DNA of 64,000 nt from Hoplostethus atlanticus (lineage: Eukaryota > Chordata > Actinopteri > Trachichthyiformes > Trachichthyidae): assembly GCA_034670405.1 (NCBI GenBank), contig JAXDDX010000339.1, positions 1 through 64,000 on the forward strand, in the 5' to 3' direction. This document shows, one piece after another, positions 619 through 29,692 of the stretch; positions within the stretch are counted from its first letter, which is position 1, and each line of letters opens with the position of its first letter. The notes beneath the pieces were generated by a model. That model saw only the letters and a program-made list of their open reading frames with translations. It searched no databases and was not told the DNA's origin. The translations under genes were made by a program, and so were the position numbers.

Positions 619-623
619 AAGCC

Positions 624-1179: not shown

Positions 1180-1195
1180 GAACGATCTGGCCACG

Positions 1196-5547: not shown

Positions 5548-5558
5548 GGGGGGGGTAC

Positions 5559-6114: not shown

Positions 6115-6187
6115 AAGCCATGGCCAGCGGCCGGTGTGACTGAAAGACGTCCAGAGCAGCGGCATGACTGTGTATCACCGTGCCTCG

Positions 6188-6452: not shown

Positions 6453-7369
6453 ACCATGTACGCACGGTCCGCGTACACAACCACAGCCCTGTCTGTCATG
6501 TTGGGGGGGAGAGGCTTCCTGTCTGGCCAGCCGGTGGAGAATGGGGCCAGCAAAGCAGTTGCGGAGTCGTCCAGGCGGGGGGCTCCTCTCTGACCATCAA
6601 CAAGCCCCTCAACTCTGGTGTAGTGGGAGTAGAATTTGACTGGGGCACGGGTTTTTTCAGGGGCAGGCCAAGATGCCTCTAGGTATTTCGCCATAGAGGG
6701 CATCATTGGTGCCAGAAACTCCACCTCTCTCGGTGGTCTCGCATATATATCGCCCGTCATGTCATCCGCATGAACAGGCTCAAGGCGAGGCGGAAGAGCA
6801 ATCGTGAGCCGGGCCGCTGCGCTGCTCACCAACCAAGGGAAATCCCACCGTAGGGAGGAAAACCCTGGCTGGGATGAGACCTCAGAGCCCCGGTCTGAGA
6901 TCTCATCTACCTTGCTCCCTGAGCCAGCACAACTTGGCGAGGGGAAGGGGATGCTAGTAGAAGCACTGGGTGTAAAATAATTAGTGTGCTTGTGTTGACT
7001 TGGGTGGGGTGCGGGCCGTGCCTGCACAAACCCGGCCTCATAGTCAAGTGCTTGTGCGTTACGCTGACTTGGGTGGGGTCTCGGCTGTGCCGACGACCCG
7101 GCCACATAGTCAGTACATGCAGGGGTTGTGGAACCAGCGTCTGCATCAGCCGCCGACTCGCCGTCCTCGTCGAACATTGCGTCATGACATTGCCTCTCTT
7201 CCAAAGGCAGGATGAGGCAATGGCGGCAGGTCGGCTTCAGGATCGCTAAGCGAGCGTGTTCTTCACCAAAGCAGAGGATGCAGGCGCCGTGCGGGTCAGC
7301 AATGGCCGCCGGCGAGTCACACCTACAGCGATCCGAAGGCTCGTCTCTCGTGATCTTCCCGGATGCCAT
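6404..7369 (-). pseudogene. DIRS-like ORF1 (gag-like), truncated and rearranged
   Basis: This is a 321-codon minus-strand frame starting with ATG at 7369. Near residue 30 it has a Cys/His cluster (CILCFGEEHA, then a CRHC motif), typical of the gag-like ORF1 of fish DIRS retroelements. A Pro/Ser/His-rich stretch and a conserved-looking region (about residues 160-300) follow. The last 20 or so residues are read out of frame through the 265-bp duplication, so the natural C-terminus is lost. It is probably not functional. Confidence 0.55.
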
Positions 7370-7630
7370 GGAGAACGCCCTGGGATTCCGATCGGGGCGA
7401 CACTTCTTCTCCTGGCAGTGATAATGTTCTTAGGTGAGGTGTTCAGTTCTTGATTCAGCGAAGCTGAATAAACGAAGGAGCAGATGGCCGTCTTTCACGG
7501 CCTTATATAGGAGGAGGCTGCCTCATCCTGGCGGGCCGAGGCGAGGTTGAAGCTTCTGTTCAGTGATTGGCGGCTCCGCAGCAGACAATGTCCAATAGAC
7601 GGAGCCCTGCGGGGCGGAGTCAGCGACATA

Positions 7631-8695: not shown

Positions 8696-9466
8696 TGTCG
8701 GAGGAAGAAGTCCAAGTCTCAGGCCAGTGATGATGACCGGACCCCCACGCCAACACTTAATACTTTTCACGATTCTGTAGATGCTGTAGTTACTGGAGTC
8801 TCAAACAGGTTCAAAGAAGTCACTGGAGATGATCAGAGTTCGTTGCAATAGAGCTTTATTCTTCAAAAGAGACAAAACCCGAGTTGGTCCCGAAACCAGA
8901 CTGACGTACAACTGTCTGTGCATGCTCTTATAAACCCTAAAAACTGGGTGGAGAATACTGATTTCTACGCCTATTTTTCATTATTTTTAGCTTTGTCAGC
9001 AAGAAAATAATGGTGTCCGAACACCAAATTTGGTCCTATGGGGGGGTCTTGGTGGGCATGTAGGCGGTCTCGTTTTCCCGTTTTACACCATTACGTAGTC
9101 GTTAACTGGGAAAGTTCGGGACTTTCCATTTTACCATTATGTTATGGCCACCTGGACTTCTCTTGTCTGCGCATGCCCCACCTGGGTTTTTTAAGGCCTC
9201 TGCCGCCTGACCTTGGACACCCTTAGTGCAGACAGGCCTCAGATTGTATTTTTTAAAAACCTTTATGATTACTGTAGGGAAACCGTTAGACTATGTTTTT
9301 GAAGCTTTATTGAAACTTTATGATTACTTTATGATCTTTTAGGTTACATGCTTAATCAAACATATTCTATATTTATGTAGATTTATCATAACACACACAC
9401 ACTCTAGATTATATTGCTTATTATAAAGCATCTCATTGTTTAGTACAAATTATATTATTCACAACA
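8696..9466 (-). repeat. Solo LTR, copy A (771 bp, TSD AAAC)
   Basis: The sequence is nearly identical to 19,764-20,534. It begins TGTCGG and ends CAACA on the plus strand and is flanked by the 4-bp direct repeat AAAC (8692-8695 and 9467-9470). Read on the minus strand it has a TATAA-like box (complement of 8938-8944) and an AATAAA signal (complement of 8855-8860), so the LTR is in minus orientation. The 4-bp TSD is compatible with an endogenous retrovirus or some gypsy/BEL elements. No internal region remains. The small plus-strand open frame at 9038-9226 is not a gene. Confidence 0.9.
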
Positions 9467-9778: not shown

Positions 9779-10165
9779 TTAAGTTTCAGTGTCTCTAGCA
9801 GGGAATTCTGTGGTGAAATAATTTAAGAATGGCTGCCAGACCTTATAGAATTTTTTGACGGATCCTCTGGTTGAGTATTTAAACTTCTCAAGCTTCAAAT
9901 GCGCCATCACATCCCCAACCCAGCGCCTGTGTGTAGGAGGGGTGGCTGATTTCCATTCAAATAAAATGAGGCGTCGAGCCAACAGAGAAGAAAAGGCTAT
10001 AACATCTAATTGGGCAGCAGATAACACCACCTCGTCAGGGACCACACCAAAAATTGCAGTTACTGGGTCAGGGCTGATTTCCTTGTCACAAATAAAGGAG
10101 AACGTCTCAAAAATAGAGGACCAAAATGCTACTAATTTTGAACATGACCAGAACATATGATAGAG
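9779..10165 (-). pseudogene. C-terminal end of L1 ORF2, cut off by the KDZ transposon
   Basis: This minus-strand frame, about 129 codons ending at a stop at 9779-9781, has the C-terminal Cys/His region of fish L1 ORF2 (HMFWSC motif near the break). The remaining ORF2 lies at 25,776-29,009, and the two join in frame across the 7-bp TSD. The 170 bases between 9607 and 9778 are the LINE 3' UTR and tail. Confidence 0.9.
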
Positions 10166-10330
10166 CAGCCCGACCTCATAACCATTCGTAGGAAATCTTA
10201 CGTAAGGTAATGTCACAGCACCCGTACATATCTTTACGTATTGATTCGTACATTATTTACGTATGGAGTCATTGTAACGTAAATATGTTTACGTATCTAC
10301 ACATTGCAAGACGTACGAATGCTTACTAAT
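10166..10330 (+). repeat. Left terminal inverted repeat of the KDZ transposon
   Basis: This is the reverse complement of 25,604-25,768 with few differences. The outer 14 bases are less conserved than the rest. It contains many copies of an ACGTA core (CTTACGTAAG, TTTACGTATTGA, GTAACGTAAATA, TTTACGTATC), arranged like repeated transposase-binding sites. Confidence 0.92.
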
Positions 10331-10569
10331 CTCCTCTCGGCAGCTTGAGAACCTACGCTATCTCGTGCGCACGAGAAACTATTTCCGGTTAGAAACATGA
10401 TTCGTCCCGGAAATATACAGTATATTAACAAGTAAGAAAACAAGTTAACTGATCAGTAATACCATTTAGTATTCTCATGAGGGCCATAGATAAGTTATGA
10501 GAGGGCTTGATCCAAAGAGCAGATCCACTTTTTTCATGTTTCGTTCGTGCAGGTGTGAATTACTAATTA

Positions 10570-10612
10570 CACCCGTACGTATCTTTACGTATTGATACGT
10601 ACATTATACCCT
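10570..10612 (+). repeat. Subterminal copy of a TIR motif
   Basis: About 38 bases here repeat the inner TIR segment that starts ACCCGTAC and runs through TTTACGTATTGA to GTACATTA (compare about 10,218-10,256). A separate subterminal copy suggests an additional transposase-binding site between the TIR and the gene. Confidence 0.75.
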
Positions 10613-10789
10613 CTTAAGTATTATGTGCTACCTGCGCTCCCGTAGATATTGTTATTACCCCCTTTTTTTTGCTCATGTCCTCTTAGGGGCTCCATATTAT
10701 CCGACCAAACACAGAATGACAAGTGAATGCGTTTCGAGCATAGACTCATTGAAATCGGTTGAGAAATGTAAACGTTATAGTGCTTTTCA

Positions 10790-10870
10790 TCCATAAAAAC
10801 CGCAGCTCCCCTCTCCTCTATTCCGTTTCCGGCGGGGCACACCTCTCTTTCTTGCGACTTTCTCCTCACG
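10790..10870 (+). other. Possible 5' UTR exon of the KDZ transposase gene
   Basis: A GC-richer, pyrimidine-rich stretch ends in CTCACG|GTGAGTAG, a strong splice donor at 10,871. A pyrimidine tract and AG lie at 11,471-11,472, one base before the transposase ATG, so a non-coding first exon spliced to the start exon is plausible. The start of this exon is a guess. Confidence 0.4.
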
Positions 10871-11473
10871 GTGAGTAGATCAGTAGCTATGCCAATGTAA
10901 TCATTTTTTGTTCACGCTTTTGGTAGTGAATTTGCTATAAATCTACTACTTTCAGACAGATGTGATCGTTTTCCTGGTCAAATGTCAGATTTATCTGTCA
11001 TTAATCCTAATCTGATATCAAAAATCCTCTATTTTTCAATAGCTCTTTTGATTTACCCACAGAATTGTTATGCTAGTTAGACCAGGACAATTTATTCTGG
11101 GCTTGACTAAAGTAATCCCAGTGATGTGATAGTCTAACATAACGGATGAGGTTTGCACTTGTTTAGCTAGAAACGAACTGTTAATTTAATGTTAAATAAA
11201 TCTAAAATAAGCCACCGTGAATTACATAAATGTATATCAGTCATTAATATTATTTACTGCTATGTTAATCTAAACAATTATTCTCAATTGTTTTGCAGCT
11301 TCTTTCTCCTAATTCCCCTCTCCTACATCTCAACCCAGTTCTTGATACTTATAAACGGACCCAAAGGCTCTTTTAAGAGCCAAAATATCTAGCGCTCTCT
11401 CTCTCTCTCTCTCAAGCTCTCTCTCAAGCTCTCTCTCTCTGTGTGCTTTGTCTGAACAATTGTCTTATTCAGT

Positions 11474-14400
11474 ATGTCTTCCAAAGATGATGAGGCCAAA
11501 TTGGATGAACTTCTTAAACACGGCAGAGAAGTTGCTGAGAAGCTCAACCAAGAATACAATCAAGCCCAACTGGATGAAGTTGTCAAACAAGGCCAAGAAG
11601 TTATTTGGAAGCTTGAACAAGAATACCATAGAGCCCAACTGGACAAACATCTTGAACAAGGCCAAACACTTGTTGAGAACCTCAACCAAGATGACTCGGA
11701 AGCCCATTTGAATGAGCTCCTAAAACAAGGCAGAGCACTTGCCAAGCATCTCAACTCTGAGGTCCAACCCAAACAGGTAAATCCAGTAAAAACTGGACGG
11801 CAATCATGTGTCTGTTTTTATACAATTGTGACTGGAAATTGGTCCACAATAGCGTATTGTTTGATTGTTACATTGATTTGGTAATGTCCACCAAAACTGT
11901 GACACTTGTACAGCATACCGTCAAGGTTGTGTAACTGAGGTGATATAGGGCCATGAGGATGCATAGTTATAGTGAGATGATGCATAATTTCCACAGGCAA
12001 AGAAGAGAAGGGCCAAACAGCCTACTGTCAGTTGGAGGAAGAGGGATATCGCTGGGCAAATCATTTCTCGAACACCCAGGCCATCCACATCTTCTCATAG
12101 TGAGTTGGGGTTTTTTTTAGGCTAAAGCAGTCCCAAGAATGTGTAGACTGTTGGAGGTTGGTAAGAAAACGTGCATATGCATTTTTGTTGGATTGTTTTC
12201 ACAGCTTCAAGAGTCATCAAATCAAGAGCCCGAACAACATCAGCAATTGAGCCCGCATTGGAGTGTCTTGAGCAACGAAGACCAGATCTGGGTGAGTATT
12301 ACATGATTGGGTTCCTGTAGATAAAGCAGTTATGGAGCATTCAAGCCTCAGACTTACTGCATGACTTGGACAGTAATTTTTCTACACTAGAACACCATCA
12401 TTGAGTTGTTTAACATAGTATTATTAGCTTGCAGCCTGCTTTATGGTATACTAACAGTTCACACCTGCACACGTCATTTTGATCAGAACTTGCTTAAGCA
12501 GATGGTGTAACTATTTTTCAACACTCCCCTAATGAGGTTATGTTACAACATCAGAATCAGAATCAGAATTCGGTGTATTTACCAAGTATGTTTACACATA
12601 CAAGGAATTTGTCTTGGTACGTTAGCTTATGTAGGTGAGATGGCAAAATAGACCTACATTTCATGTTTACCTGAGCCACTTTTTAGAATGCAGGCATGAT
12701 GTGTCTTGAAGTGTGTCTATAACAGTACACCTTTTTAGTCAGTGTTTTACACCTTGTAAACTTATATTGTTGTGTTGACAGAAACACTTCTTCAAGAACT
12801 ACAAGACCTGTTGTCATCTTCTGGTGAAAGTCCCGCATTTGAAACTAATCTGAAAACTACAGCATCGCAGGATTGGGGCACCAGGAACAAGTGTTCGTCA
12901 GAGAGGTGGAGAGAGGCTAGACCATATTTAATCTCCAACATGCTGGCAACAGAGGATGTCAGACCCCAGAATTGTCAGCATTGCAAGGCAAGGGAGGCAG
13001 TGGTGAGGTGCAAAGATTGCCTGCCAAAGCAATATACCTGTATGGAGTGTGACCTTGCTGTGCATGGGACACATGTGCTCCACAACAGAAGCTCCATGAT
13101 TGCGGGGTTCCTCGAGTCTCTGGCCCCCACTACAGTGGTGAAGCAAGGCAAAGATGGACGATACTTCCATCATCATTATGGTATTTGTTGTTGTTGTTGT
13201 GTTTGTAAATTAGAGCCTTTGTGCTCTTAAACAACAATGTTTACTTATTAGGGGAATCCTTTGATAAACCTTTTCGGGTTTCACATACTGCCAAATGGAA
13301 TAGTTGGATTACTAAACGATAACATCAAAATTGTTCGTCATACTTGGGCTACACGTTTTCTCAATGGTTTTGACGACAAAGAAAAGTAGTGGTTTAGTTA
13401 AGTCTGTCAATATATTATTTTTGTTATGCATACAAATCTTAGTAGTTCTAATTTTTATTTCATGTTTTAATTATAGCTCGTCTCTTACCAATGGCACTAC
13501 CAGATTCCGTCTGCCAGTGTAGAGAGCTAAAGTACAGTGTTGGCGTAGGACGGTCAATTGCCTTTGTCAACATGAATGGTGAGTGTCTCCTCAAGGAATA
13601 TGAAGGGGTAAAACAGTGCTCCTCAATATCTCGTGACGTATAATTAATTGTTTCTGACTTCCAACTTTTGATGACTGCTCTCAGTATGTTTTTGTATCTT
13701 GTTTTTGCTGTAATGTTGTCAGGGTGTGTGTGTTGAATATATTACATGTACTTGTCATTGATGTCATTTAATCACAGTTACTGATACTGACTGTCTTTTG
13801 TAGGTCGCTATGACCTTTCATTACCGCAAATTCACTGTTGGGGCTGCAGTAGAACCTGGACACCTGGTGTGGCAGACATTCAGGCCAGTGGCTACTGGCC
13901 TGCCACCATCAACTTTAACACCATTTATGATGTTGAAATATTCTTAGCCTTTGAGGAGCTGAAAATGGCAGCCCCAGGAATGTCCCGCTTAGCATTCATA
14001 AGGATGCTTGACATGAAAACCACACGCTATGGCAGGGTGAGTATACTATGCATGATATTAGTTATGGAGGATAGTTGATGCATACCCTGGTCAGTTTCAT
14101 GTCAAGATTTAATAATTTTTTTCAATGTATCTTTAAACAGACTGGCAAGCTATGTGGTGATGCTTTCTATAAGAGCTTCTTGGAGTGGGCTATCTGCCAG
14201 TATGAAGTTGACCAGATCTGCGAGGAACAACCCTTCAGCTGTCCAGCTTGCACCCCTCTCATGCTGGCCGTTGCGGTGGATGGCAACCGCAAGCATCATC
14301 GCTTCAAAAAGTCCGGAAGGTATGAACATATCTCTTTGTTGTTTTGTCTTATCTCATTTAGATACAGAATCAATTTATCAGCACTAATGTTTTCGAACTG

Positions 14401-16965
14401 GGGTTAGCCGTTTTTACATTTCATACGTGGGTACTTTGTGAAGACCTTTTTCTTTGGTACATTACTTCTTCAGTAAAATCTGTTTTACTCTCACCACTTT
14501 ACAACTTATAGACTGCAATTATATAAATGTTTGCATTCAAATGCTTTCAGTGATATTTGCATTTTTTTGTTCTTGCAGTTCGGAGGAATCTGGCTACTTT
14601 GAAGGGGTGTTCCTCTGCAGTGATGAACACGTTTCCTCTTTTGTTGATAATATCCGCAAGAAAGTCCACCATGTAAGTATACAAGAGTGCATTGTATTCT
14701 CCTTTCATTGCCATTCCTCTGTCCATCCTCTTAAGTGCATCTTTTCTTACATCTTTGGTTTCATTTAGGCTCCTGGCAAGGGGGTCTGTGGATCTGCAGC
14801 GTTTGCAGCTGCTAAGGAGTCCTCCAGAAAGGCCAGCAGCAAGCTGGATGAGGAGGGCATCGAGCTTGCCGTCTGCAGGCATGGTGTTCTTTTGCGGGCA
14901 CTCAATATGTACAGGGGAGAGATATATGCATATCCCCTGTACTTGCAGAAGGAGCTCTCAGCAGAGAATGTGACCTTCTTTTGTGCAGATGTAATTTGTA
15001 AATACTGGCCCTACTTGACCAAAGTCTGCCAAGCCTGCCCAGAACTTAGTAACCTGCTGGAAATGAAGCCATTCCTCTCTGTCATGCATGCTAAAGTGCA
15101 TGGCATGAAATGTGAGGTATTGTACATTATTAATATAATCTCTTCTGACTACAGTTAGGCTATCACACAATACATGCATGCATTCAACACTGACTTTGTG
15201 GTTCACTTTGTCACCCCATAGATCAAGTGGAGTGGAAGCTTCCAAGCTGGTGCAGCCTACACCATGGCAGAAGAAGTGGAGCAGGCTAATAGCTTTTTAT
15301 CAAGGATTGCTATAAGCACCAAGTTCATGTCCAAAGCAGGTTAGACTGAGTTGTGTGCTGATGTCATGGGTCTCACCTGTGCTCTCCTAGTTACGTATAA
15401 CCCTATAAAATACAACTGAAGACCTTGGTGTGAGATGTGTCTCATTGCTAACATTCTTTTTGATTCTCAGGCCGCACAGACATGCTTACACTGCAGTGCA
15501 TGGGGTGGAACAGGATGAAGGTCCAGAACATGTGCCAAACACTGTGCAAAAGATACCGCAAGGTAACATCTTTATTTGTACTGGTGGAGGCAGTGTGTAA
15601 ATTGAATTGATAATACAACAAAGCACTTTTTTACAACTTCATACCCTCTCTTGTTCTGTGTTTTTCAGACTCAGCATAATCTCAAAAGAGAGAGGGAAGG
15701 CCTGCAAAACATGAAGACTGAACTGGCCGTGGATGACGCTGTCATGCAGCAGTGGGTCACATATGTGCAGGAGTGGGCTGACACTGGTAAGCAACTTCAT
15801 AATAACAATATTTTATGGTTTAAATTCCTGCCTTGTAATTTTCTGCACATCAGTGTAGCTGGAGAAAAGGCAGTCAGTGAATTTGGAGAATTGTTTTATT
15901 CCGGATTCATCTACATTGACTTGTGTACTGTTCCAGACCAGGAAGGCTTTGATGCTATCCTTTACAGTACATGTTCAAATGTCTTGTTCCCTTGATTCAT
16001 TACAGCAACTGCGGAGGACACTGATGTTCCTGAGCAGACCTTCCGAAACACAATCGAGGAGATGGCTGCAAGCATCAAACAACGGAGTCATCGTCTTTAC
16101 AGACAGACTGGCATGTCTTTTTGCAATTTGCATATACATGTAGCATAATGCAGTGAATCTTCTGCTGTTAATTGTTTTAATGTTTGATTGTGTTTTTAGG
16201 CACAAACAAAGGGCGAAACAAAATTCGACGAAAACTCTGTGAGGAGAAAAAGAAGCTGGCCTCTGCCATTGAGCAACACAATGGAGTTGTTGAGCCGTCA
16301 CTGAAGATTGCGTCAGTGGATGACATCCTTCAAGATAACTATGTTTTCCCATGGCAGCTGACAGTCCATGGTAAGTTGCACATTAGTGTCATTTGCAATG
16401 AACTATGCCATCAGTATGTGGATTTCTATCTGATTTGTTTTTTCTCTGGCAATGCAGATGGTGTTGACCTCTTCACGAAAAAGAAGGCCTTTGACAAGGT
16501 GATGCTTGTTCAACGCCTACAGGAAGAAGAGGTCATCCTTGTTCAAGAGGCAAAGCAGCACTGGCTGTCCCTGAAAAGGCAAGAACGGAGATTTCACAGT
16601 CTGCTTCACAGAATCTGTGTAGATGGTAAGAATTTTGCAATTATTTTTAGACTTCTTGAAATTCGAATTATTTGATAAATACATAAGCGGTATTTCAAAA
16701 TCATACAATGTCACCCATAGGCAACCCTTGGAATATCGCCGGAGAGGGGATTCGAGGGCTTGAGTGTGTGTTGCGGAAGAGACTGGCCCAGCTAAGGGCT
16801 CACCAGGACACTGTGAAGGAGAGCTATCAGTGCATCCTCACACCAGTAGAGAACCTGACGCTTTATGACAATCAGGAGGAAGACGATGATGCCAGCAGCT
16901 CAGAGGAAGACCTTTATGCCACTAGCACTGATGAGAGCTCTGATGAAGAGAATGTGCATGCATAG
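11474..16965 (+). CDS. KDZ transposase, 16 coding exons, 954 aa
   Basis: Exons: 11474-11776, 11997-12099, 12205-12291, 12782-13180, 13477-13578, 13804-14036, 14141-14319, 14579-14672, 14769-15116, 15222-15339, 15471-15562, 15669-15786, 16006-16110, 16200-16370, 16458-16625, 16721-16965. They sum to 2865 nt; all phases agree and no internal stop appears. Introns are GT-AG except intron 13 (GC-AG). Residues 8-99 are four 23-aa amphipathic repeats. Residues ~225-265 hold a Cys/His cluster. Residues 332-409 (exon 6) match the CxC2-type cluster associated with KDZ transposases (CWGC, SGYWP). The catalytic region spans exons 7-10: CPAC then VAVDGNRK (~450), CADVICKYWPYL (~572), HAKVHGMKCE (~612) and an EEVEQ motif (~632). 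The C-terminus is acidic and Ser-rich. It would cut and paste this transposon in the nucleus. Exon limits are my own reading. Confidence 0.9.
12550..12640 (-). mobile_element. Short LINE 3'-end fragment in intron 3
   Basis: A CAGAATCAGAATCAGAATT array followed by TTTACCAAGTATGTTTACACATACAAGGAATTTG resembles the reverse-strand 3' tail of a common fish LINE. Only the tail is present. Confidence 0.55.
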
Positions 16966-19232
16966 TTTAGTGTCTTTATGTATCATTATGTACCCACTGA
17001 CTATAATTCACCTAGCATGTAGTTAGGCAATTAAACATGAAATACTTCCTTATTAAATAAACTGTAGCCTTTTTATGATAGCCGACACAATGCGTTATTC
17101 GTTCCCCCTCACAATGAATGACTCATTGTTCAGAATGTGTTCATTGAGACATTTTCAAGTTTTAAGTCAAAGTAGATAACATATTGGATGTATATTAATA
17201 AAGATTTTGTCATATGTTTTGGTTCGGTTATGTGCATTGAGGTAAACGATTAGGCCCCAGCTTGAATGAATGGAATTTGACCGAGCATATACTGTGATTG
17301 CTTTCAGTTATGAACATCAACCGGTTGTAAATATGTATCCGGACCAAAAATCTAAATGTATTAAAGGTGTTATAGTGTGAATAGTGAGCTGTATGTATTT
17401 TGAAAGTACATGTACATCATTTAAGTTAATGCTATGTATAAAATAAAAAAAATATTTTAATGATGAATGTGTTTTTTTTAAATTATAGTCTTATTTAATG
17501 AAATGCATTCAACAGCAAATCACAGATTAAAGGATTCTAATGGGTAATATGCCAACAGGAATCAATTATTTATCTTTCATTCCATTTTAGCATGCATATT
17601 AACTTACTAGGCATCTCAAGCAGTAGTGCATTTCATTATATATGTTGGTTAATTAAGGATAAATTAGTTGTTTCAACAATAGAGTGGTCAAAAATATTAG
17701 AAGCATTCTATAGAGCAGTTTCTCTTTATTGTTACTATATTAAAGAATGAAATGTGGCACATTTTACACATCGATACAAAAACTACAATTTGCGCCATCT
17801 TGTTATGCACTGTAATGCAATGGCATCATGGGTAAGGTAGTTATATTGTTACCAAAAAAAAAGGTTTCCTAAAAAATTAGGAAAAATTAGTTTTTAAGTA
17901 TTTTTTTGCATATTTAATTTGAGTAGGGTAAACATCAGTACATCTAATGATTTTGCAACAATAAATATGTAAAAATAACACAGTTTAACTGATTTCATTC
18001 AATTTAGATTGTGAATGGTCTTAGAATCCACACTTGGCACCCCACTGCAATGGCAGGGTTGGAATTTCTTTTACTTAGTCGTAGAACAAAACCAAACACA
18101 TTTTTGGAAAGGTCTCAGCTTGTATGTTAGCATATGTAAGTTTGGGAGATTTCAGTGGACCCTAAACTGAGATATTGACCTTTGAACCCTGACCAGAGGT
18201 CACCTTTGAAGCCCTATATCTCAGTAATTAAAAGAGCTACCAAAATAAGGTCAACTGTTTTGGACAACTCTGGACATGTACTTTTAGAGGGGTGGTAGTG
18301 TCAATAGGGGGCGCCACTTAAAATGGCCTAACATATAATTCAGGGCTTTGCAAATTACATATGTAAATTCTGACAATGCAGGTATATTCCCCAACCAAAT
18401 TGACCCCTAGTAGCACATGCATATCGTTTTTCACCCATACCTTCTTTTCCTTTTTAGGTTTATAACAATATAACTACCTTACCCATGAGGCCATTGCATC
18501 AAGATGCATAACAAAATGGCGCAGAATTGTAGTTTTTGTAGTTGGCTAGGGTTAGGGTTTGAAAGGTTAATACATAATTGCGTAAATATTACGCAATGTA
18601 TACAATAAGTCGTTTTTGAGTATGACTGTGAATGGGTTAACATAAATACAAGTAGGCTTCAGCTTGGTTGCAAAATAGGCCTACGTCCACACGACCATTA
18701 TCTACACACATGAAAGCTGAAGGGTCCGCTTGCGCTGACAGCATTGACAGCGCTGCTCTGGCCAATTGGCTTTCCCTCACGTGCAGCGCCAACCCGCTAT
18801 GCTCCGCCCCAAACAATCTCAGCCAATCAGTACGTGTTCAGCTTTCAACTCAATCCATAACAATGTACAATTTATATGCAATTTCTTTCCATTGAATGTA
18901 GGATTCATAGTAGAGCGGGTGAACAATTAATAATCTATTCACGGGCGTGACCATAGAACAATATATGGGATGGATTTTAAATCACAAAACGAATGTGGTT
19001 TTGCGAAACATTAGCTTGTGATGTTATGTTGCAGATGTTATGCATTTGCAGAACCAATGTCATCATGTAAAGATTCGGGAGAGCCCTGAAGAATTCTCAA
19101 ATTAGATGGAGTTAGATGAATTAATCTGAAATAAAAACAAAATATTCCAAAAGACCTCACTGTACTGCCTTGTCTTAAATTCCTCATTAGACAATTGTGC
19201 ATAATGATGCAACTTTTTATTAACAGCTACAA
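16966..19232. other. KDZ transposon spacer
   Basis: This is AT-rich sequence after the transposase stop. Possible polyadenylation signals for the transposase include AATAAA near 17,056. Apart from the inverted-repeat element at 17,776-18,539 and the short hairpin near 18,580-18,600 (ATTGCGTAA / TTACGCAAT) I see nothing coding. Confidence 0.6.
17776..18539. mobile_element. Non-autonomous element with ~75-bp inverted repeats
   Basis: The arms at about 17,776-17,851 and 18,464-18,539 are reverse complements with a few mismatches (ACAAAAACTACAATT at the outside, GGTAAGGTAGTTATATTGTTA at the inside). About 610 non-coding bases lie between them. This layout fits a MITE inserted in the KDZ spacer, or an internal structural repeat of the transposon. 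I found no convincing TSD. Confidence 0.6.
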
Positions 19233-19239
19233 ATGATGT

Positions 19240-20765
19240 CAGCAGCAGTGAAGCGGAGGGTCTGTAGCATCTTACAGTGGGCCTGGTTCTGGGCATCATT
19301 TTCTGTAGTTAGCAACAAGCTGAGACATCGAATGCAGAGACAGATTGTCAGGGACAAGAGGAGATTGGAAGAGGCTGTGGCTCAGTACAATGATCTGGTC
19401 CCAGAAGCACTGCAGCCAGTGGATACCCTCCTGGCAGCTCAGAGCCATATCTGGTCATGGGATGAAGGTAACTGTAATGATGGTTGAATAGAGCTCTATG
19501 TAGCATTTAAACTTTTAAATCTTTCTAACACTGAAAATAAGCAACATTTACTGGTCTGCATTAGTTACAGTAGAGCAGTCACATCATTCTGCAATGCTTC
19601 TTCATCATATGACAATTATAACTATAATTCTATATAGCAATCATATATATGTAACAATATATTATAACCATAGTGTGGAAATAATTGTAAGCACTCAAGT
19701 GTAATAACAACTATGTACTAGAATGCACACTATGCACACCAGGTATTTGACAGGTATCTCTACTGTCGGAGGAAGAAGTCCAAGTCTCAGGCCAGTGATG
19801 ATGACCGGACCCCCACGCCAACACTTAATACTTTTCACGATTCTGTAGATGCTGTAGTTACTGGAGTCTCAAACAGGTTCAAAGAAGTCACTGGAGATGA
19901 TCAGAGTTCGTTGCAATAGAGCTTTATTCTTCAAAAGAGACAAAACCCGAGTTGGTCCCGGAACCAGACTGACGTACAACTGTCTGTGCATGCTCTTATA
20001 AACCCTAAAAACTGGGTGGAGAATACTGATTTCTACGCCTATTTTTCATTATTTTTAGCTTTGTCAGCAAGAAAATAATGGTGTCCGAACACCAAATTTG
20101 GTCCTATGGGGGGGTCTTGGTGGGCATGTAGGCGGTCTCGTTTTCCCGTTTTACACCATTACGTAGCCGTTAACTGGGAAAGTTCGGGACTTTCCATTTT
20201 ACCATTACGTTATGGCCACCTGGACTTCTCTTGTCTGCGCATGCCCCACCTGGGTTTTTTAAGGCCTCTGCCGCCTGACCTTGGACACCCTTAGTGCAGA
20301 CAGGCCTCAGATTGTATTTTTTAAAAACCTTTATGATCACTGTAGGGAAACCGTTAGACTATGTTTTTGAAGCTTTATTGAAACTTTATGATTACTTTAT
20401 GATCTTTTAGGTTACATGCTTAATCAAACATATTCTATATTTATGTAGATTTATCATAACACACACACACTCTAGATTATATTGCTTATTATAAAGCATC
20501 TCATTGTTTAGTACAAATTATATTATTCACAACACTACTAACATGAAGTGGCTTCTGTCAATCAGAATTTGTCATTTAATAGACACTGATGTGGACCTGC
20601 ACACCAAAAAGAAGGTACGATAAGATGATGCTCTTTGCCAGACTGAAGGAGGAGGACGGCATTCTTGTGCAGGAGTTGAAGCAGCATTGGCATCAGCTGA
20701 TGGGAGATGCTGGGGTTTTGAGGGACCAGATCACAAACATTACAGAGGATCTCAGAACAGAGTAG
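19240..20765 (+). pseudogene. Decayed 3' exons of a second, divergent KDZ transposase
   Basis: About 19,310-19,468 reads KLRHRMQRQIVRDKRRLEEAVAQYNDLVPE and ends at a GTAACT donor; it aligns in type with exon 14 of the intact gene (KIRRKLCEEKKKLASAIEQHN). About 20,579-20,765 reads TDVDLHTKKK and, after a frameshift near 20,615, an exon-15-like stretch ending in LKQHWHQL. A possible exon-13 remnant follows an acceptor at 19,228. The two are separated by a solo LTR (19,764-20,534) in their intron. The sequence differs clearly from the intact gene, so this is another KDZ family, not a recent tandem copy. Confidence 0.75.
19764..20534 (-). repeat. Solo LTR, copy B (771 bp, TSD CTAC)
   Basis: It has the same length as, and near identity to, 8696-9466, with the same TGTCGG...CAACA ends. 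It is flanked by CTAC at 19,760-19,763 and 20,535-20,538. Regulatory motifs (TATAA-like, AATAAA) again read on the minus strand. It inserted inside the intron of the decayed KDZ tail, after the KDZ transposon was in place or while it was elsewhere. Confidence 0.92.
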
Positions 20766-20977
20766 GTATAGAGTATATTAGAAAATGTTTCAACAGTTGT
20801 ATGTCTTCAGCGTCTACAATGGTTCTACTAGGGTTAGTCTTTGACCTGTCCGCAAGCCTTTGCTGCTAATTTCTGAGAAGAACAAAGAAGACTTTCCATT
20901 TCCGAATAAAAATTTATTGCACTGAACAATGTGTTTGAATTAATTACATTTTTATAAGACATAAAATCTGAATGAAA

Positions 20978-23900
20978 TCAACATGAATGAAACAGCTCAT
21001 ACGGCTCCCAGGTGTCTTTCCACTTGGCCCCACTGAAAGAGAAAAGGAATTTGAATGCTAGTTAAGCAAGGGATTTAATGATATATCACAGAAGCACAAT
21101 GACTGAGAAAATGTAACATACACTTTGTAGCCAAAAATATGTTGACACCTAATACTTTTTTATGGTTCGGGCTAGGTCCTTTAGTTACACTGAAGGGAAA
21201 TCTTAATGCTGCAGGATACATTCTGGATGACATTCTCGCTTCAAACTTTGTGGCAACGGTTTGGGTCAGGCACTTTATTGCCTGAACTTGCCTGGCCTGC
21301 ACAGAGCCATGACCTCAACCGCATTGAACACCTTTGGGATTAATTGTAATGCGTAACATCAATGCCAGACCACACAAATGTTCTGGTGGCTGAACGGAAG
21401 CAACCCCCTGCAGCAATGTTCCAACATGTAGCGGAAAGCTTTCTCGGAAGCAAAGGGGGGGACCAACTCTATATTAATGTCGATGATTATGGAACGAGAT
21501 GTTTACACCTTCTAGTCCATGTCCTGACAAAGTGAAGTTGTTCTGAGGGCAACATGGGGTGCAAAACAGGATCACTGACTACAGTAATTCACGGAAGCAT
21601 CTTAACCCGTCTGACTGCCTCAAGGTTAAAAAGTTGAGTTTTCACAAGTTGGACATTTGTCACATTTATGAGCCAAGATGATTGTCTCAGAAATAAGTAC
21701 TGTAGGCATAAGGATGTTCATGCAGGGCCGGGGGAGAAAGAAATGGAAATGGATGATGGAAATTACATACTTCTGGATAAGGATTAGAGATTTCACTAAA
21801 TTGTGAAGGTCAAGAAGCCTTTAAAGCCATTCTTACAACCACTTCCTGGCTTCTGATACAATCTATGGTTTTGCCTGTTAAAAATGCATTAGTAAAGCAA
21901 TACATACCATCCAGTACATGGCAGCCAGCGCACCTTTGTCTCTCTTATGCCCTGGAATTTAATTCAAATACAATGACATAAAATATTTGAGTTTTATTAT
22001 CATTCTTATCACATTATTGTGTGTCACACAAAAGAAAACTGATAATATATGGATTAGCTGGAGAAAGATATATAAAATAATTCAATTTTAACATACCTCT
22101 TTAGATATTCGATCACCCAATGTTTTTTCAAAGGGGTAGTTGTCCTGTTCCTGGTGAATTGGGCAGTCTAATACAAAAATAAAATAAAAAGGGCATGTAG
22201 TGATTTTTTTGTTTATATGGACTTTGGCAATCCCAGTACATTTTGTAACATATACTGTATTACACAGTGTAGGCCACTGTTGGGTCTTACCCTCCCTCTT
22301 GTAGACCCAGAGCCGGGTCTTAGCCACGGCGGTAGGGGCCTTGGCCACGGCGGTAGGGGTCTGCACGGCGGTAGGGGTCTTGGTAGACACTGTGGAAAAA
22401 CAGATGTTTTAAATGAATATAGCAGACCACAATCAAAACTCTGTCACTTTCATACGTTTCTAATACGTGTCCTTTACTAGGTCCTTTTGTCAGCAGAAGC
22501 CTAATGGCACAGCTACATAAGTGAACTGTAATGGCCAAAGGTCTATACAGCAGCGGACATTTCACCATTACAGTATGAATCAGTTTGTTTATATCCACCA
22601 AGGTTAAACTGCCACGGTTATCATCTATAAACATGATAATGAATTACTGTACCTGATGTCTTTTGAATTCTACACTTTTTAGAGGGGGGTTGCAGGGTGG
22701 CAAGGGGTTCCATTGGGGGATCAATGGGGGTGAGGAAAAGGGTCATTGTTTCCTCCTCTCCAGGGTGGGCGCTGAGGTCCTCCTCTCCAGGGTGGGCGCT
22801 GAGGTCCTCCTCTCCAGGGTGGGTGCTGAGGTCCTCCTCTCCAGGGTGGGTGCTGAGGTCCTCCTCTTCTGGGGGGTCGGTGGTGTCACGGTGGTGGCCC
22901 TTCACACAGTCGGCCACTGTAAAAAAATAAATACATACAGCAAGGTTTGTTGACATTACTATTCGACATTACTACTGTGACTAATTGCAACCACTAATGC
23001 TTACAGTACAAACCTTTTAGGAGACTGGAATATATTTGCTTTAAGGTTTCCAGGGTAGCCTTCTCTTTCTCCGTTGAAAATGGAAAATCTGAAATAATGT
23101 CCGCAGTAAATGTGCCGGACACACTCTTCTTTCCCAGCAGAAGGAGTGGATACTTCCCCATTGCAGATAATTTGTGCATCTGTTATCACATATGAAAAAA
23201 ATGTGTTAGACATGATTATAAGCTTATTAAAATGACATAACTATACATAAAGAGGTCATGTAAAAAAGGTGATTGAGGACCGCAAATGTAGGTGTAACTT
23301 TAGTTCAAGTAAAGCAGATTATATTGTATTTTTCTTGCATGCTGCACTTAAGATACGATGTTGTTGTGCTGCACTTGAGATACGATGTTGGTGTCATGAT
23401 ACACTGTCCTATTATCTGAATTATGTTGTCATCTATTCATGCTATTCTTGCACTGTGTCTGGTTAAAACACAGACTGTTCCTTGGTACTAATCACTGAAA
23501 TCTTGGTAGGACTGTGCACTTCTGATCCTTGATTACTTGCTGTACTTACTACATGCACTAATTCCGCTTTGAATAAAAGCGTCTGCTAAATTAATAAAAT
23601 GTAAATGTATGTAGGGTTCAAATACAGCCTCAGGCAGGCAAATCCATATGACTTTTCATTTCACTGCACACCCTGTGTGTGTATGTGACAAATAAACTTC
23701 TTGAATAAACTTCTTGACTTTGTGGTAGCACCATACACAGTAAGGGTACATTTTATTTGTTTAACAAATTATATCTTACCAGAATTTCAGCAGAATTCAG
23801 TAGTTTACAAGAATTGTTGCCGCTGGTCATCATGGCCACCCAATTACGGTCGATTTTTCTTTTTGCGGCCATCACTGACCTTTTCATTGGCTGTTTCTCC

Positions 23901-23980
23901 CCACAAATCCTGCATGCTTTACATGCCACTGCAATGTGGGCTTTGCATGAAACACATCTTTTCAGTGTAGATCCCGGCAT
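20978..23980 (-). CDS. KDZ transposon accessory gene, 7 coding exons, 299 aa, unknown function
   Basis: Exons in reading order: 23980-23780, 23179-23014, 22916-22653, 22389-22291, 22167-22097, 21951-21908, 21032-20978 (stop 20978-20980). They sum to 900 nt with matching phases and GT-AG introns. Residues 9-26 hold two Cys pairs plus a fifth Cys (C9xxC12, C20xxC23xxC26), as in a small zinc ribbon, followed by a basic stretch. Exon 3 has four EEDLS-[TA]-HPG repeats and a KKCR basic patch. Exon 4 has KTPTAV-type repeats. The end, residues 276-295, carries CTGC and WKDTWEP. I do not recognise the family. Its position inside the transposon, convergent to the transposase, suggests a transposition cofactor, regulator or captured host gene. 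Function is inference. Confidence 0.75.
22750..22866 (-). repeat. 27-bp tandem repeat, four units, coding
   Basis: Four copies of a 27-bp unit (CCTCCTCTCCAGGGTGGG core on the plus strand) encode the acidic nonapeptide repeats in exon 3 of the accessory gene. Units differ at one or two positions, for example GGGCGCT against GGTGCT. The length is a multiple of three, so copy-number change would keep the frame. Confidence 0.9.
23270..23612 (+). mobile_element. L2-type LINE 3' tail in intron 1 of the accessory gene
   Basis: The end, GAATAAAAGCGTCTGCTAAA then TTAATAAAATGTAAATGTA (about 23,571-23,609), is the familiar 3' end of fish L2-like LINEs and their SINE partners. The upstream bases include a short local repeat (TGCACTT[AG]AGATACGATGTTG, twice, 23,343-23,386). 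The 5' limit is uncertain. Confidence 0.6.
23640..23716 (+). mobile_element. LINE 3' tail, same family as 48,140-49,030
   Basis: The segment TTCATTTCACTGCACACC...GTGTGTATGTGACAAATAAACTTCTTGA matches the tail at about 48,972-49,027. Here the AATAAACTTCTTGA unit is doubled. Only the last ~75 bases of the LINE are present, a typical 5' truncation. Confidence 0.7.
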
Positions 23981-23993
23981 TGTTATAAATGTG

Positions 23994-24510
23994 TCTGTAG
24001 AAACATGTTTGAAAAAGTGAATGGTAGCAGGAGCTGCAATATAGAACACATGATGTTGTAATCCCTGGCCAATCTTTCTCTCGCTCTATCTGGAGGGGGG
24101 GGGCGACATGTTGTTTAACCCAAAAAGTTATTACTGCTAGTTATATGTAACGTTGAAAATAAATCCCCCATTATTAGGAATATCTAGCTAGCGACCTCTG
24201 AGCGAATTTAATGCAAAATGTACATTAACTTCATAGCTAAACTAGCTTTTAGCTAGTTGTGTTGATTAGCTTGAATAAATAATTAATACAATGACAAAAC
24301 TGGTGATTGGCATGGGCAGCTAATTGAAAACTACAAAACGAACATACTCTAGTCTAAAGTATGTCGAATAACATTAATTAGCTGTACTATATAGCAAATG
24401 TACCATATTGCAAAGAGCCTTACCTTGATTGTGAGAGGAAAAGTACGGAGCGCGTGTTACACCGTAATCTGTGACCGCAGAGGTCGCTGTTGCATATTTT
24501 CTGCAGGCAT
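23994..24510 (-). other. Putative 5' UTR exon and promoter region of the accessory gene
   Basis: On the minus strand a CAATCAAG|GTAAGG donor ends an exon at 24,424, and a TTCTACAG acceptor precedes 23,994, 14 bases before the ATG at 23,980. A non-coding first exon at about 24,424-24,510 is therefore likely. From 24,440 to 24,520 the DNA is locally GC-richer than its neighbourhood, as expected of a promoter. Confidence 0.45.
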
Positions 24511-25109
24511 GTTGTCGAGAACGGACATGAAGTCAAAGAAAATGTTAGTTCATAGTTTATTTCATAAACTGCAGTAAACGGTTGTTTCTAAAACTTAATT
24601 TGAAAAATGATTGTATTATTTTTTACCTCATTTGGGCATTATGACAAAAACATAACCAGTTTGAGCAATCACAGAGGGGCTCGTAACGAAAAGAAAGATC
24701 CCCCCCCTGTTATTAAATGTGGTTTATAAATAAATTTGATTTGATTTGATTAGCATTTTACAGACACATACTATGGCTGGGGTGTTTAGTATGATCCACC
24801 ACCGTTGCTTCTTTCTCCATAAGAAGCAATAACAATCAGCGGGACATCGGGAGAATATTTTTTTTTATCAGTGGGATATTTTAAATGGGCTATACATACA
24901 GGATCAAACACTTTAGCATTGAAACGTGAAAACAAAACTATCATTGATCATGCATTACTGTATTAGTGCTGATTCACTCATGTTCAGCAGAGGATTTAGT
25001 TTGGAAATCGAGCTATTTATTTTCAGAACCTGCTATTTATTTAGTCTATTTTCAAGTATAAACAAATTGCAAAAAATAAGAAGGTAGAAAATCAATAAAT
25101 CCTTCAATA
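24511..25109. other. KDZ transposon right spacer
   Basis: This is AT-rich, non-coding sequence. It includes a TTTGATTTGATTTGATT microsatellite (about 24,735-24,752) that looks like a LINE 3' tail. Nothing else is recognised. Confidence 0.5.
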
Positions 25110-25465
25110 TCCATGTAACAATGCTCGCTACTCCCGGGGCCGCGACAGACAGAGACAAGGCAGGGAGGAGAGTCAATGGTCAACCAGACCGCTTTATTTA
25201 CACACAGTCAATAAGTTCACCGGCCCGATCTTGACGGCCGCTCTTTCAGCGCCGTCGCGCTCGGCTAGCGCACCGCCCCTCCGTCCCGGCAGGTCAGCCG
25301 CGGAGCACCAAAGCTGGCCTAGTCCGCCAGGTTTACAGGCAGCTACCAGCTCCAACCCCGACTGGCCAGCTCTTCCAGGTCTGCACGGCTGCATCCTCCG
25401 GGAACAGGGACGGTCGCCGCTGCTGGTTCCGCTGCACCCTCCGCTCCACAAAAATAAATTACAGT
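25110..25465 (-). repeat. GC-rich island, possible solo LTR
   Basis: This block is strikingly GC-rich within the AT-rich transposon arm. On the minus strand it has AATAAAGCGG (complement of about 25,186-25,196), followed by a stretch ending in GAGCATTGTTACA, much like an R-U5 end of an LTR. No TSD could be fixed, and the outer limits are uncertain. Confidence 0.35.
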
Positions 25466-25603
25466 AACAACAACCATAACAACTTCAAAACTTGTGGATT
25501 TGTGCCACAAACTTCAAAACTTGTGGATTTGTGCCACGAAAGCCTACCATAAAAACTAAAAATGCGTGGATTTAAAAACGCGTGGATTTGTTCCAGGAAA
25601 GGT

Positions 25604-25768
25604 ATTAGTAAGCATTCGTACGTCTTGCAATGTGTAGATACGTAAACATATTTACGTTACAATGACTCCATACGTAAATAATGTACGTATCAATACGTAA
25701 AGATATGTACGGGTGCTGTGACATTACTTTACGTAAGATTTCCTACGAATGGTTATGAGATCACGTTG
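25604..25768 (-). repeat. Right terminal inverted repeat of the KDZ transposon
   Basis: This is the reverse complement of 10,166-10,330, with the same chain of ACGTA-containing motifs and only scattered substitutions. Just inside it, at about 25,473-25,600, an AACTTGTGGATTTGTGCCAC motif is tandemly repeated twice, with two looser copies. Confidence 0.92.
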
Positions 25769-25775
25769 GATAGAG

Positions 25776-28700
25776 AGTGGCAGGAGCCTGATGACACCGG
25801 GAGCAGGCTGGGTCAACGTCTGGATATATCCTAGCTAGCCTACTCCTGGAGAGGTGAAGCCTATGAAATACTCTAAATTGAAGCAAACCATGTCTGATAC
25901 AGATGGATGTTGAATGTATTCTCTTAATCGCCAATTGCCAGGAGCTATCTGAGATGTCATAGCCAAAGTCCTCCTCCCACGCCATCTTAATATGATTAAG
26001 TGAAGGGGGGGTAATCTCTTGGATATCACTGTACAATCTACTCACAGCCCCCCTATGTGTTGGATCCTGGTCCAGCCACTCATCTATCCAACTATCTACC
26101 GGGGGTGAAGGAAACGGGGAGAAGTGCTTCCTAACAAAGGCGCGCACCTGCAAATACCTGAAGAAATGTGAGCGGGGGATACTGTATCCACACACCAATT
26201 GGTCAAAAGACATGAACACCCCATCTTTAAACAAATCCCTCACCCGCCCCAGACCACTCCTGGACCACACCCGGAAAGCAGAGTCCATGAGAGAGGGTGG
26301 AAAAAGTGCATTAGCCACAATTGGGAGAGAGGGCAAGGCCTGTCTGCGCTTAACATGGGTCCTGAACTGAGACCATATTCGAAGAGAGTTACTCACAATA
26401 GGATTATTTGTGAGGCGCTGTTTACTGAGAGGCAACGGAGCACACACTAAAGAGGATAAGGATACAGATATGGACTTATCTAGCTCCTTAAAAAATGATT
26501 TTGGAATAAAAACCGGTACTGTCTGGAACAGGAATAGGAACCTGGGCATAATTGTCATCTTGACAGAGTTCACTCTTCCAGCCAATGATATAGGGAGTGT
26601 TGACCAACGAATAAGGTCTTGCTTGGCTTTCTCTAGGGCTGGTTTAAAGTTCTGTTTGAATAGGTCTTTGTATCTACGGGTTACTGATACACCCAGATAT
26701 GTAAAAGCATCCCGAGTTTCAGTCAGTGGATAAGCCTCAAACGACATCCGTCGAGCCTGGTCATTGATCGGAAAGAGTAAACTCTTAGTTAGGTTAATCC
26801 TATACCCTGAGAACTTACCAAAAATTGAAATGATATCTAATGCCCTTGGGATAGAGACAGAGGGATTTGATAAAAGAAGCACCAGGTCGTCCGCATATAA
26901 AGACAATTTGTGAACTAGACCCCCCCTATTGATGCCTGTGACATCCCTGGCACCTCTTAGGGCAACCGCCAGCGGCTCCATGGCTAGGTCAAATAAAAGT
27001 GGGCTCAGCGGACAGCCTTGTCTAGTCCCTCTACCTATCTGGAAATACCTTGAGACAGTGCTATTTGTACGAACTGCAGCCTGGGGTGCAGCATATAAGA
27101 CCCTAATCCAAGAACAAAAAGTCGGTCCAAAACCAAATCTGTCCAAACTTTTATAAAGGTACTCATATTCAATCCGGTCAAATGCCTTGTGAGCGTCCAA
27201 GGAGAGCACAACCTCTGCCATGGGAGTTTCTGGAGAGTACAGAACATTAAACAACCTGCGTAGGTTACCAAAAAGTTGCCTTCCTATAATTAAACCGGTC
27301 TGGTCTGGGTGTATTACTGTAGGCATAACCGATTCCAGTCTGCCAGCCAGAACCTTTGTTAAAATCTTATAGTCACAGCAGAGCAGGCTAACAGGCCGAT
27401 ATGATTCACATTTCAGAGGGTCCTTTCCTTTTTTGAGAAGGACTGAAATCGTGGCTTGGGTCATAGTAGGGGGGAGAGATTTGCGTTCCAGTGCCTCAGA
27501 GTAAACCTCCTTTAAGAGAGGGGTTAATTTGCTTGCAAATTTCTTAAAGAACTCAATCGGGAAGCCGTCTGGCCCAGGAGCTTTACCGCTCTTCATCTTC
27601 CTAATTGCCTGGTCTATTTCAGCTGCTGAGATGCTATTGTCGAGATCTGTCCTATCACGGGGGGCCACGGTCGGCATCTCAAGATCATCGAAAAACTGTG
27701 TCATACGCGTGCTATCACAGTTTTCGGTAGTGTAAAGGTCTTCATAAAATTTCTTAAATTGGTCATTTATATATTTTTGATCTGTCGTGGTCCCATCCGG
27801 GGCGTCAATCTCCGCTATAAACCCAGCCTCCGAGGATTGTCTCAGCTGGTGGCATAACAGTTTACTAGCCCGCTCCCCATGCTCATAAAACTCCTGACGG
27901 GATTTGAGGTGGAGCTCCTCTGCCACCCCGGATGAAAGAGTATCAAATTCTGTCTGTAATGCTATTCTCTCCCTGTAGAGGTCAGCAGAGGGAGCTGCTG
28001 AGTGTCTGTGGTCCAAAACATTTATCAGAGAGATCAGCTCAGTAAGGCGTGCCGACCGTCTTTTATTCATACTGGCATTATAAGATATTATCTGTCCACG
28101 CAAGTATGCCTTCAATGTTTCCCAGAGGTTACAGTAGGTTGTATCAGGCAGCTGATTCGTTTCCAGAAAGAAGTCGATTTGAGTCGATAGGAAGCTAACA
28201 AAATCTTCATCAGCTAGAAGATGTGGGTTAAGTCGCCAGGTGCGTTGTGGACACACATTATTCGGAAAGCAAAGTGACATTCTCACCGGGCTATGATCAG
28301 ATACAACTATGCCCTCGTATTCAATAGACCTCAGCAGGGGGAGGAGTTTCTTGTCTAACAGAAAATAGTCTATCCTAGAATATGCTTGATGCACTGGTGA
28401 AAAAAACGAATACTGTCTGGACCCTGGATTTTTATGTCTCCATACATCGATCCCCCCATAAGTCTGCAGAAAGGCATTAATTGTCTCTGCTGATTTACTT
28501 AGCGTCGCAGGTGTGGCCCTGGAGCGATCCAGAGCCGGATTAAGAACACAGTTCAGGTCTCCGCCCCAAATCAGATTTTGGCTATTCAGTTCTGGAAGTA
28601 AAGTGAAAAAGTCTCTGAAAAATTTAGCATTATCCCAATTGGGAGCATAAACACATGCCAGCACCACTGGTAAATTATAAAGATGACCTTGCACTATGAC

Positions 28701-29009
28701 AAAACGGCCGTCCCTGTCAGAAACAACCTTTGATTGTATAAATTGTACATTCCTGTGGATAAGAATGGCGGTGCCTCTGCATTTAGCATTAAATGTAGAA
28801 TGAAAAATCTGGGAAAAGCCCCCTCTCTTAAGTCTGGTGTGGTCCTTGTTAAGCAAATGAGTTTCAGTCAAAAATGCTATATCTGTCCGTAACTTTGATA
28901 GTTGTGAAAATATCTTACTCCGCTTTACAGGATGATTGAGCCCTCTGGCGTTCCAATTAGTGAATACAGTTTCTGCCCGCTTTGCTCTATTAGTATTAGA
29001 ACCCATCAT
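25776..29009 (-). pseudogene. L1 ORF2: endonuclease and reverse transcriptase, cut by the KDZ transposon
   Basis: This minus-strand frame starts at ATG 29,009 and stays open for about 1078 codons to the KDZ insertion. It then runs a few codons into the transposon and stops at 25,761. Residues ~15-255 are an APE-type endonuclease (NWNARGLNH, SRIDYFLL, SDHSPV). Residues ~480-760 are a reverse transcriptase with APGPDGFPIEFFKKF, GTRQGCPLSPLLFDLA and the YADD active site. The last part holds a Cys/His motif (CSRCHQAP) whose partner residues lie at 9779-10,165. Such proteins nick DNA and prime reverse transcription of the LINE RNA. As split here it would lack its C-terminus. Confidence 0.93.
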
Positions 29010-29692
29010 ATTTCCTTATCAAAAATTATTGCAGCCTGACTAGAAACAACATATTTAGTACTAGAAAACATTCTGAAGAATGAAAATTCTCTGTATGAAC
29101 ATTGTGGAGCTGAAGGTGGATGACAAGAAAAAACTGAAAAACAAAACAGCATGTAACATATAACAATCACAAAACCCCAATGCTGGCCCCTCCCCAATTG
29201 AGAGGCTGCATACCCCACTTGCATGTTATCCTCTAACATAAACATACGCTACTAAAGGCTTACCTCGTGAGACGGCGCCTCACCAGAACTGTATGAACAT
29301 CTGAGGAAATGATGCAGCTATAAATCCACAAACTGTAATCCAAAATCGAACTCCCTTATTATAACTTGTCCAAAATAGGCTAATATCGGTTTCTATAGGG
29401 CCTATAGCAGCCATAAACAACCATAAAACCTGGTCTATGATAATAGGGCAGCAGGCCTATAAAGCCAGCCACCCACCCAAAATATTATAAACCCGTGTTG
29501 GAATGGGCCCAACCAAAATGAAAATGAAACATGGAAAGTAGTAGGCCTACTGTATTATCCTCTCGTTAGCAGGCCCTCGGGAGAGCAAAACAGTCTCTAG
29601 TCCATGAGGACTCCTGTTGCCGTAGGCTAGTCTATAATAGGTGTAAAGCATTAGGCTACCGGAATAACGTCGCCTTATTAGTCCTACCGGTC
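29010..29692 (-). other. L1 spacer between ORF1 and ORF2
   Basis: This is AT-rich LINE sequence of about 680 bases between the ORF1 stop and the ORF2 start. A short minus-strand frame at 29,006-29,245 has no recognisable domain and is probably chance. Confidence 0.6.

Follow-up and report, generated by a model that had tools for sequence, protein, structure and literature searches.

KDZ transposons are large, little-studied mobile elements that in fungi carry enzymes acting on DNA methylation. In the portions of Kojima (2025, PMC12730594) drawn on here, two Kyakuja families are described with 7-bp target site duplications, CA..TG ends and no inverted repeats, Zisupton and a Dileera family are given 8-bp duplications, and fungal KDZ elements are reported to carry TET/JBP genes. 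The portions used of a second study (PMC12477816) report that large algal transposons, KDZ elements included, carry accessory genes and that giant Ectocarpus transposons whose transposase genes are broken were probably mobilised in trans. The element studied here is a KDZ transposon of the fish Hoplostethus atlanticus, found in a 64,000-nucleotide stretch of contig JAXDDX010000339.1 (assembly GCA_034670405.1, positions 1 to 64,000, forward strand), which is referred to as the window. Its inverted ends, the ends shared with other copies and the empty sites place it at 10166..25768, and 771 of its 15,603 bp belong to a solo long terminal repeat (LTR). With a probability of about 80%, it is a cut-and-paste transposon of the KDZ superfamily with two convergent genes, a transposase and a second gene (gene 2) that would encode a chromatin-directed accessory protein. 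New here are the demonstration of an empty site and of a duplication of 7 bp, the finding that the family is young and has tiny derivatives, and the chromodomain-related accessory protein.

The fish element and Kyakuja of agaricomycete fungi (PMC12730594) are alike in their KDZ transposase, 7-bp duplications and 5'-CA..TG-3' ends, and in each an accessory gene has a tie to epigenetic marks, a putative one in the fish. However, the fungal families are described in the available part of that source without inverted repeats, whereas the fish element has inverted repeats of ~160 bp. The accessory genes differ too, coding for a TET/JBP dioxygenase in the fungi and for a chromodomain-related protein in the fish. 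Zisupton, as described in parts of PMC12730594 and PMC9297572, is likewise a fish KDZ element with a multi-exon transposase and inverted repeats, but its duplications are reported as 8 bp long, compared with 7 bp in the window element. Ectocarpus and Chlamydomonas harbour giant KDZ elements (PMC12477816), which are large as well, and the giant families are described with nested insertions, with broken copies and with accessory genes; the window element is about half the maximum size of these KDZ elements, and the portions of that paper used here describe no chromodomain protein for them. Chromoviruses (Ty3/gypsy) are mobile elements with a chromodomain as well, as far as the sources seen describe them, although theirs is fused to a retroelement integrase while that of the window element would belong to a separate protein of a DNA transposon. 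The first-pass annotation had labeled the element KDZ/Zisupton. The superfamily part of this label holds, whereas Zisupton does not because of the 7-bp rather than 8-bp duplication. The element may be filed as KDZ, Kyakuja-like, since the 7-bp duplication and the CA..TG ends match Kyakuja while the long inverted repeats depart from it; this likens it by described features, and membership is not claimed. An animal element that combines these three features is relevant to the criteria by which KDZ lineages are distinguished. Among the matches listed from the open-licence literature, 20 of 571 and 10 of 137 in two of the searches, none described a chromodomain gene in a KDZ element, a scope outside which the founding KDZ papers lie.

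Element ends, target site and age of the insertion

The left terminal inverted repeat (10166..10330, + strand) features iterated TTACGTA, four in 165 bp, and the right repeat (25604..25768, - strand) likewise has four. The paired segments, 10172-10330 and 25604-25762, are 159 nt long and 98% complementary (156 nt and 98.7% in a second comparison), in agreement with the inverted ends of ~165 bp first proposed. A subterminal repeat of 38 nt of the terminal repeat (10570..10607, + strand) has three further TACGTA motifs, and the enrichment of TACGTA was assessed against mononucleotide shuffles of the left end only. The outermost 9-mers are unlike each other, CAGCCCGAC on the left and ATCACGTTG on the right, and the element reads 5'-CA..TG-3'.

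The genome (632.8 Mb, 1,161 contigs) was searched with only the best candidates scored, so that all locus counts are lower bounds. The left end CAGCC.. recurs with small changes in copies C722, C736, C79 and C1, and the right end ..ATCACGTTG recurs in C122, C256, C258, C24 and C722. The flanks differ among these end-sharing copies, except that C722 equals C736 on the left and C24 on the right. Because the terminal 9-mers are common to other copies, the ends at 10166 and 25768 are exact to the base, and ends at other positions are ruled out.

The element lies in a long interspersed nuclear element (LINE) on the - strand, whose long open frame (25776..29015), coding for reverse transcriptase and endonuclease domains, is broken by the insertion and continues across it at 9779..10158. 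GATAGAG is present on both sides, at 10159..10165 and 25769..25775, as the first-pass annotation had reported, and rejoining the flanks with a single GATAGAG gives a continuous LINE reading frame. An unbroken version of the corresponding 407-base empty site, holding GATAGAG once, is found at four loci, C85, C506 and C32 (100% as printed) and C228 (99%); the matches span 405-407 bases, with partial matches at C35 and C48. A 7-bp duplication is found at three insertions, GATAGAG in the window, GACTATG at C5 and CGTGATG at C51. The latter two are mini-elements, which together with the empty sites fix the length at 7 and rule out an 8-bp duplication.

The host LINE family appears very young, its uninterrupted copies at four other loci being 99-100% identical over 405-407 bases. 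Near-identity among its copies points to a young LINE, and an insertion within that LINE would be younger still; judged from these alignments, the insertion of the element is recent.

Transposase gene and activity of the family

The transposase gene (11474..16965, + strand) has 16 coding exons that splice to 954 amino acids. Fourteen of its introns are GT-AG and one is GC-AG, the latter also being present in copies C122 and C94; the phases are consistent and no stop is encountered, which bears out the gene structure originally drawn. Homologous proteins align over the exon joins of this model and of that of gene 2. Exon 1 features four repeats of 23 amino acids (69 nt; 11490..11765, + strand) that probably form a coiled coil. 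Pfam identifies a CxC3 cysteine cluster at residues 302-401 (exons 5-6; 13488..14012, + strand, coordinates derived from splicing) with 46.8 bits against a cut-off of 26.6 and an E-value of 2.8e-12. The KDZ catalytic domain (PF18758) is found at residues 451-669 (exons 7-11; 14264..15511, + strand, derived in the same way) with 102.1 bits, a cut-off of 26.6 and an E-value of 4.6e-29, and these two matches confirm the KDZ assignment. The presumed catalytic residues are conserved among 36 relatives, D456 and E633 in all of them and D574 in 35, with one gap. All named species among the best 120 of 158 transposase homologues are fish, a few of these homologues bearing no species name, consistent with the fish element that had been suggested. 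A Foldseek search with the whole transposase model gave no match at E 0.001 or better, and a search of PDB sequences with the transposase relative P0003 gave one chance-level match only.

Family sequence is found at no fewer than 17 further loci (C116, C308, C79, C736, C722, C122, C34, C258, C117, C256, C198, C1, C24, C5, C51, C94 and C373). Locus C46 has a 31-base end match only, and C238 holds a divergent KDZ element with 44-53% identity. C122 is 99.2-99.7% identical to the window copy across most of the sequence that comprises exons 6-16, the region between the genes, gene 2 and the right end, and 97.5% identical over one 512-bp piece; the solo LTR is absent from it. The near-identical LINE empty sites and the identity of C122 support a recently mobile family. 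Mini-elements C5 and C51 are 91 bp and 81 bp long. They may mean that just over 40 bp from either end is enough in cis, although just two mini-elements were found and they could alternatively be longer insertions deleted in place. Divergence of exons and introns among copies is nearly equal, which fits copies drifting after insertion, and the pooled ratio of nonsynonymous to synonymous substitution rates (dN/dS) of the transposase against the window is ~0.4 over 8 copies, which are not independent. An internal deletion joint, 13724/20631, is common to C736 and C24, and C722, C736 and C24 (L010, L014, L029) may be one insertion that was duplicated, or haplotigs.

In the proposed mechanism the transposase would bind the repeated TTACGTA motifs in the element ends, excise the element and reinsert it with a 7-bp stagger. 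Two observations temper the view of the window element as still active. The glycine adjoining the presumed catalytic glutamate, present in 35 of 36 relatives, is substituted in the window alone, with copies C122, C79 and C34 retaining it. Among the best candidates no other locus has all exons of both genes. In the wider family, C722 and C308 carry both ends yet have no matching duplication; they are taken for rearranged copies. The first-pass annotation had called the element possibly still active, of which recent mobility stands while the missing second all-exon copy and the private change temper the rest; likewise, pieces of the family turned up at other loci, with no second all-exon copy among the best candidates.

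It is plausible, though short of an even chance, that the window copy is structurally intact but non-functional and that another copy mobilises, or once mobilised, the family in trans. Besides the glycine, residue 807 of the window transposase is changed relative to C122, C79 and C34, and the Ectocarpus giant transposons with broken transposases give a precedent for such movement in the portions of PMC12477816 seen. On the other hand, the window transposase otherwise keeps 147 of 149 conserved columns, and the best candidates from the 1,161 contigs include no other all-exon copy that could act as the source.

Accessory gene

Gene 2 (20978..23980, - strand) has seven coding exons and splices to an open 299-residue protein, as expected from the earlier proposal of a second gene on the opposite strand. 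The protein would have a cysteine cluster at its N-terminus and a chromodomain-related domain at its C-terminus, joined by a variable linker of low complexity. In the N-terminal cluster (23903..23956, - strand) C9, C12, C23 and C26 are invariant in nine homologues, and a 27-bp minisatellite in exon 3 (22751..22867, - strand) encodes part of the linker. The C-terminal domain is encoded by exons 5-7 (20990..22165, - strand, coordinates derived from splicing) and features CPxH and CxGCG motifs as putative zinc ligands. Conservation lies in the N-terminal ~124 residues and the last ~60 residues, and the linker is repetitive and variable.

To the eye the C-terminus of gene 2 resembles a chromodomain, and three comparisons point in that direction. 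A profile of five C-termini searched against PDB sequences has the Chp1 chromodomain as its top match (E 2.1e-4), and chromodomain proteins account for all but one of the 15 rows with E-values up to 10. In Pfam, the Chromo model hits the Pygocentrus domain with an E-value of 5.2e-5, just below the curated cut-off, and in a Foldseek search with the Pygocentrus model chromodomains fill ranks 1-26. All five gene 2 C-termini compared have an aromatic residue at both of the first two cage positions, the first being Tyr or Phe; the cage residues of Chp1 include Y22 and Y47. An invariant Trp aligns with Trp44 of Chp1. There are also discrepancies that count against this assignment. Pfam Chromo has no match in the window's own segment and in two other homologues, the third cage position is not aromatic, although an invariant Trp lies nearby, and the structural comparison is limited by a Foldseek E-value of 0.012 at best, a Pygocentrus model that is poor overall and VIA-align Z scores <5. 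On the profile, the alignment and the predicted model, we lean toward a chromodomain-related C-terminus, in which the invariant CPxH and CxGCG motifs look like a putative zinc site inserted in the cage loop, and the likeliest function would be the reading of methylated histones.

The C-terminus could instead be a zinc-knuckle domain that merely resembles a chromodomain and has no histone-reading role. The CPxH and CxGCG ligands that break the cage loop and the missing third cage residue speak for this, but it is unlikely given that the profile, Pfam and fold comparisons all point to chromodomains and that the first two cage positions are aromatic throughout.

With a chromodomain-related C-terminus, the gene 2 protein would most likely tie the transposase or the element DNA to chromatin with methylated histones. 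The outcome could be that insertion is steered to tolerated places or that silencing of the element promoters is countered, similar to the role thought to be played by TET/JBP proteins in fungal KDZ elements. The more specific proposal, that a vertebrate DNA transposon uses a separate histone-mark reader to find or resist H3K9-methylated chromatin, is tentative and more doubtful than probable. If it is true, KDZ elements would have acquired their weapons against silencing separately in fungi, with TET/JBP, and in fish, with a chromodomain, and the fish gene would suggest that the KDZ superfamily repeatedly acquires tools against host chromatin. The window element inserted recently and has exact ends, defined genes and tiny derivatives, so that the idea can be tested directly in vertebrate cells.

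A single-sequence search found two fish homologues of gene 2, and an alignment search found nine proteins, seven from otophysans (Ctenopharyngodon, Triplophysa, Misgurnus, Megalobrama, Leuciscus, Pseudorasbora and Pygocentrus) and two from Coregonus that have the N-terminal domain only. As annotated, the Megalobrama, Leuciscus and Pseudorasbora proteins stop short of the C-terminal domain. Pfam searches of single gene 2 exons gave only a sub-threshold zinc-ribbon, the full gene 2 alignment, searched against PDB sequences, gave one chance-level match only, and the N-terminal domain had no convincing match. In T. dalaica, P. parva and Pygocentrus, gene 2 and a related transposase are on sequences of equal length, which suggests that they share a chromosome; in Ctenopharyngodon, Megalobrama and Leuciscus the listed transposases are on other sequences than gene 2. 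In the H. atlanticus genome gene 2 is present at a minimum of 8 loci, 7 of 8 being beside element ends or transposase exons, and the gene 2 region of C373 has no element end within the 18.8 kb examined. The dN/dS of gene 2 against the window is ~0.4, pooled over 6 copies that are not independent. Taken as sequence comparisons, these data support gene 2 as a conserved family that occurs together with the element, in line with the accessory gene first suggested.

In the Coregonus proteins P0128 and P0129, the annotation joins the gene 2 N-terminal domain to C2H2 zinc fingers. Such a fusion could be a host co-option or an annotation chimera.

Composite interior of the element

The 771-bp solo LTR (19764..20534) is located between the two genes, is flanked by the 4-bp duplication CTAC and has a twin at 8696-9466. 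It has no counterpart at the same place in C122, C79 and C117, and a 773-bp repeat (8694/19762) is thus ruled out as a part of the element proper. The open frame onward from 19762, first read by eye as a KDZ exon, is likewise LTR sequence. On both sides the LTR is flanked by relic pieces of a second, different KDZ transposase. Those resembling exons 13 and 14 are at 19208..19477 (+ strand), where most of the intron between the two exon pieces is missing in the window copy, and a frameshifted piece resembling exon 15 is at 20597..20767 (+ strand). A live third gene is ruled out by a frameshift, read directly off the sequence, within a stretch that is identical in the window, C122, C79 and C117. 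The relic exons are also inside C122, C79, C34 and C117; their presence in the element therefore predates the divergence of these copies. They match other fish KDZ transposases at 35-51% among the 25 rows listed, and the resident transposase is not one of these.

These features raise the question of whether the right half of the element stems from a second KDZ element, with the relic exons and gene 2 acquired jointly by nested insertion or recombination. The presence of the relics in four copies and their resemblance to KDZ transposases other than the resident one are consistent with this origin. We nevertheless consider it rather unlikely, as gene 2 distances track those of the resident transposase and the divergent KDZ locus C238 has no gene 2 match. 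A passenger role for gene 2, in which a fragment of a host gene was captured and is copied along without being needed, is distinctly improbable, for although its N-terminal domain also occurs in the Coregonus zinc-finger proteins, copy C117 retains a version with stops, and transposase relatives are present in Sparus, Perca, Gadus and Solea with no gene 2 match listed from them, both end domains are conserved between species while the linker is not, gene 2 adjoins element ends or transposase exons at all but one of the listed loci, and its distances follow those of the transposase.

A MITE-like (miniature inverted-repeat transposable element) structure is present within the transposon at 17775-18540, with inverted repeats of ~79 bp around ~0.6 kb, and is also found in C122.

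Surrounding sequence

The twin solo LTR at 8696-9466 features an AAAC duplication, lies within what by eye appears to be an older gypsy-like pol fragment and shares 99.5% identity with the solo LTR that lies between the two transposon genes. The LTR family has further members within copies C24 and C736, at different positions. An LTR retroelement at 623-6114 has two 557-bp LTRs that are 100% identical and long open frames at 1178-2224 and 2122-5547, and it is therefore a very recent insertion. A 276-bp direct repeat of 95.7% identity is found at 6178-6453 and 7098-7372, with starts 920 bp apart. Rfam and tRNA scans of the window gave no matches. Three long open frames of 616, 240 and 254 amino acids are present on the + strand at 41277-45461.
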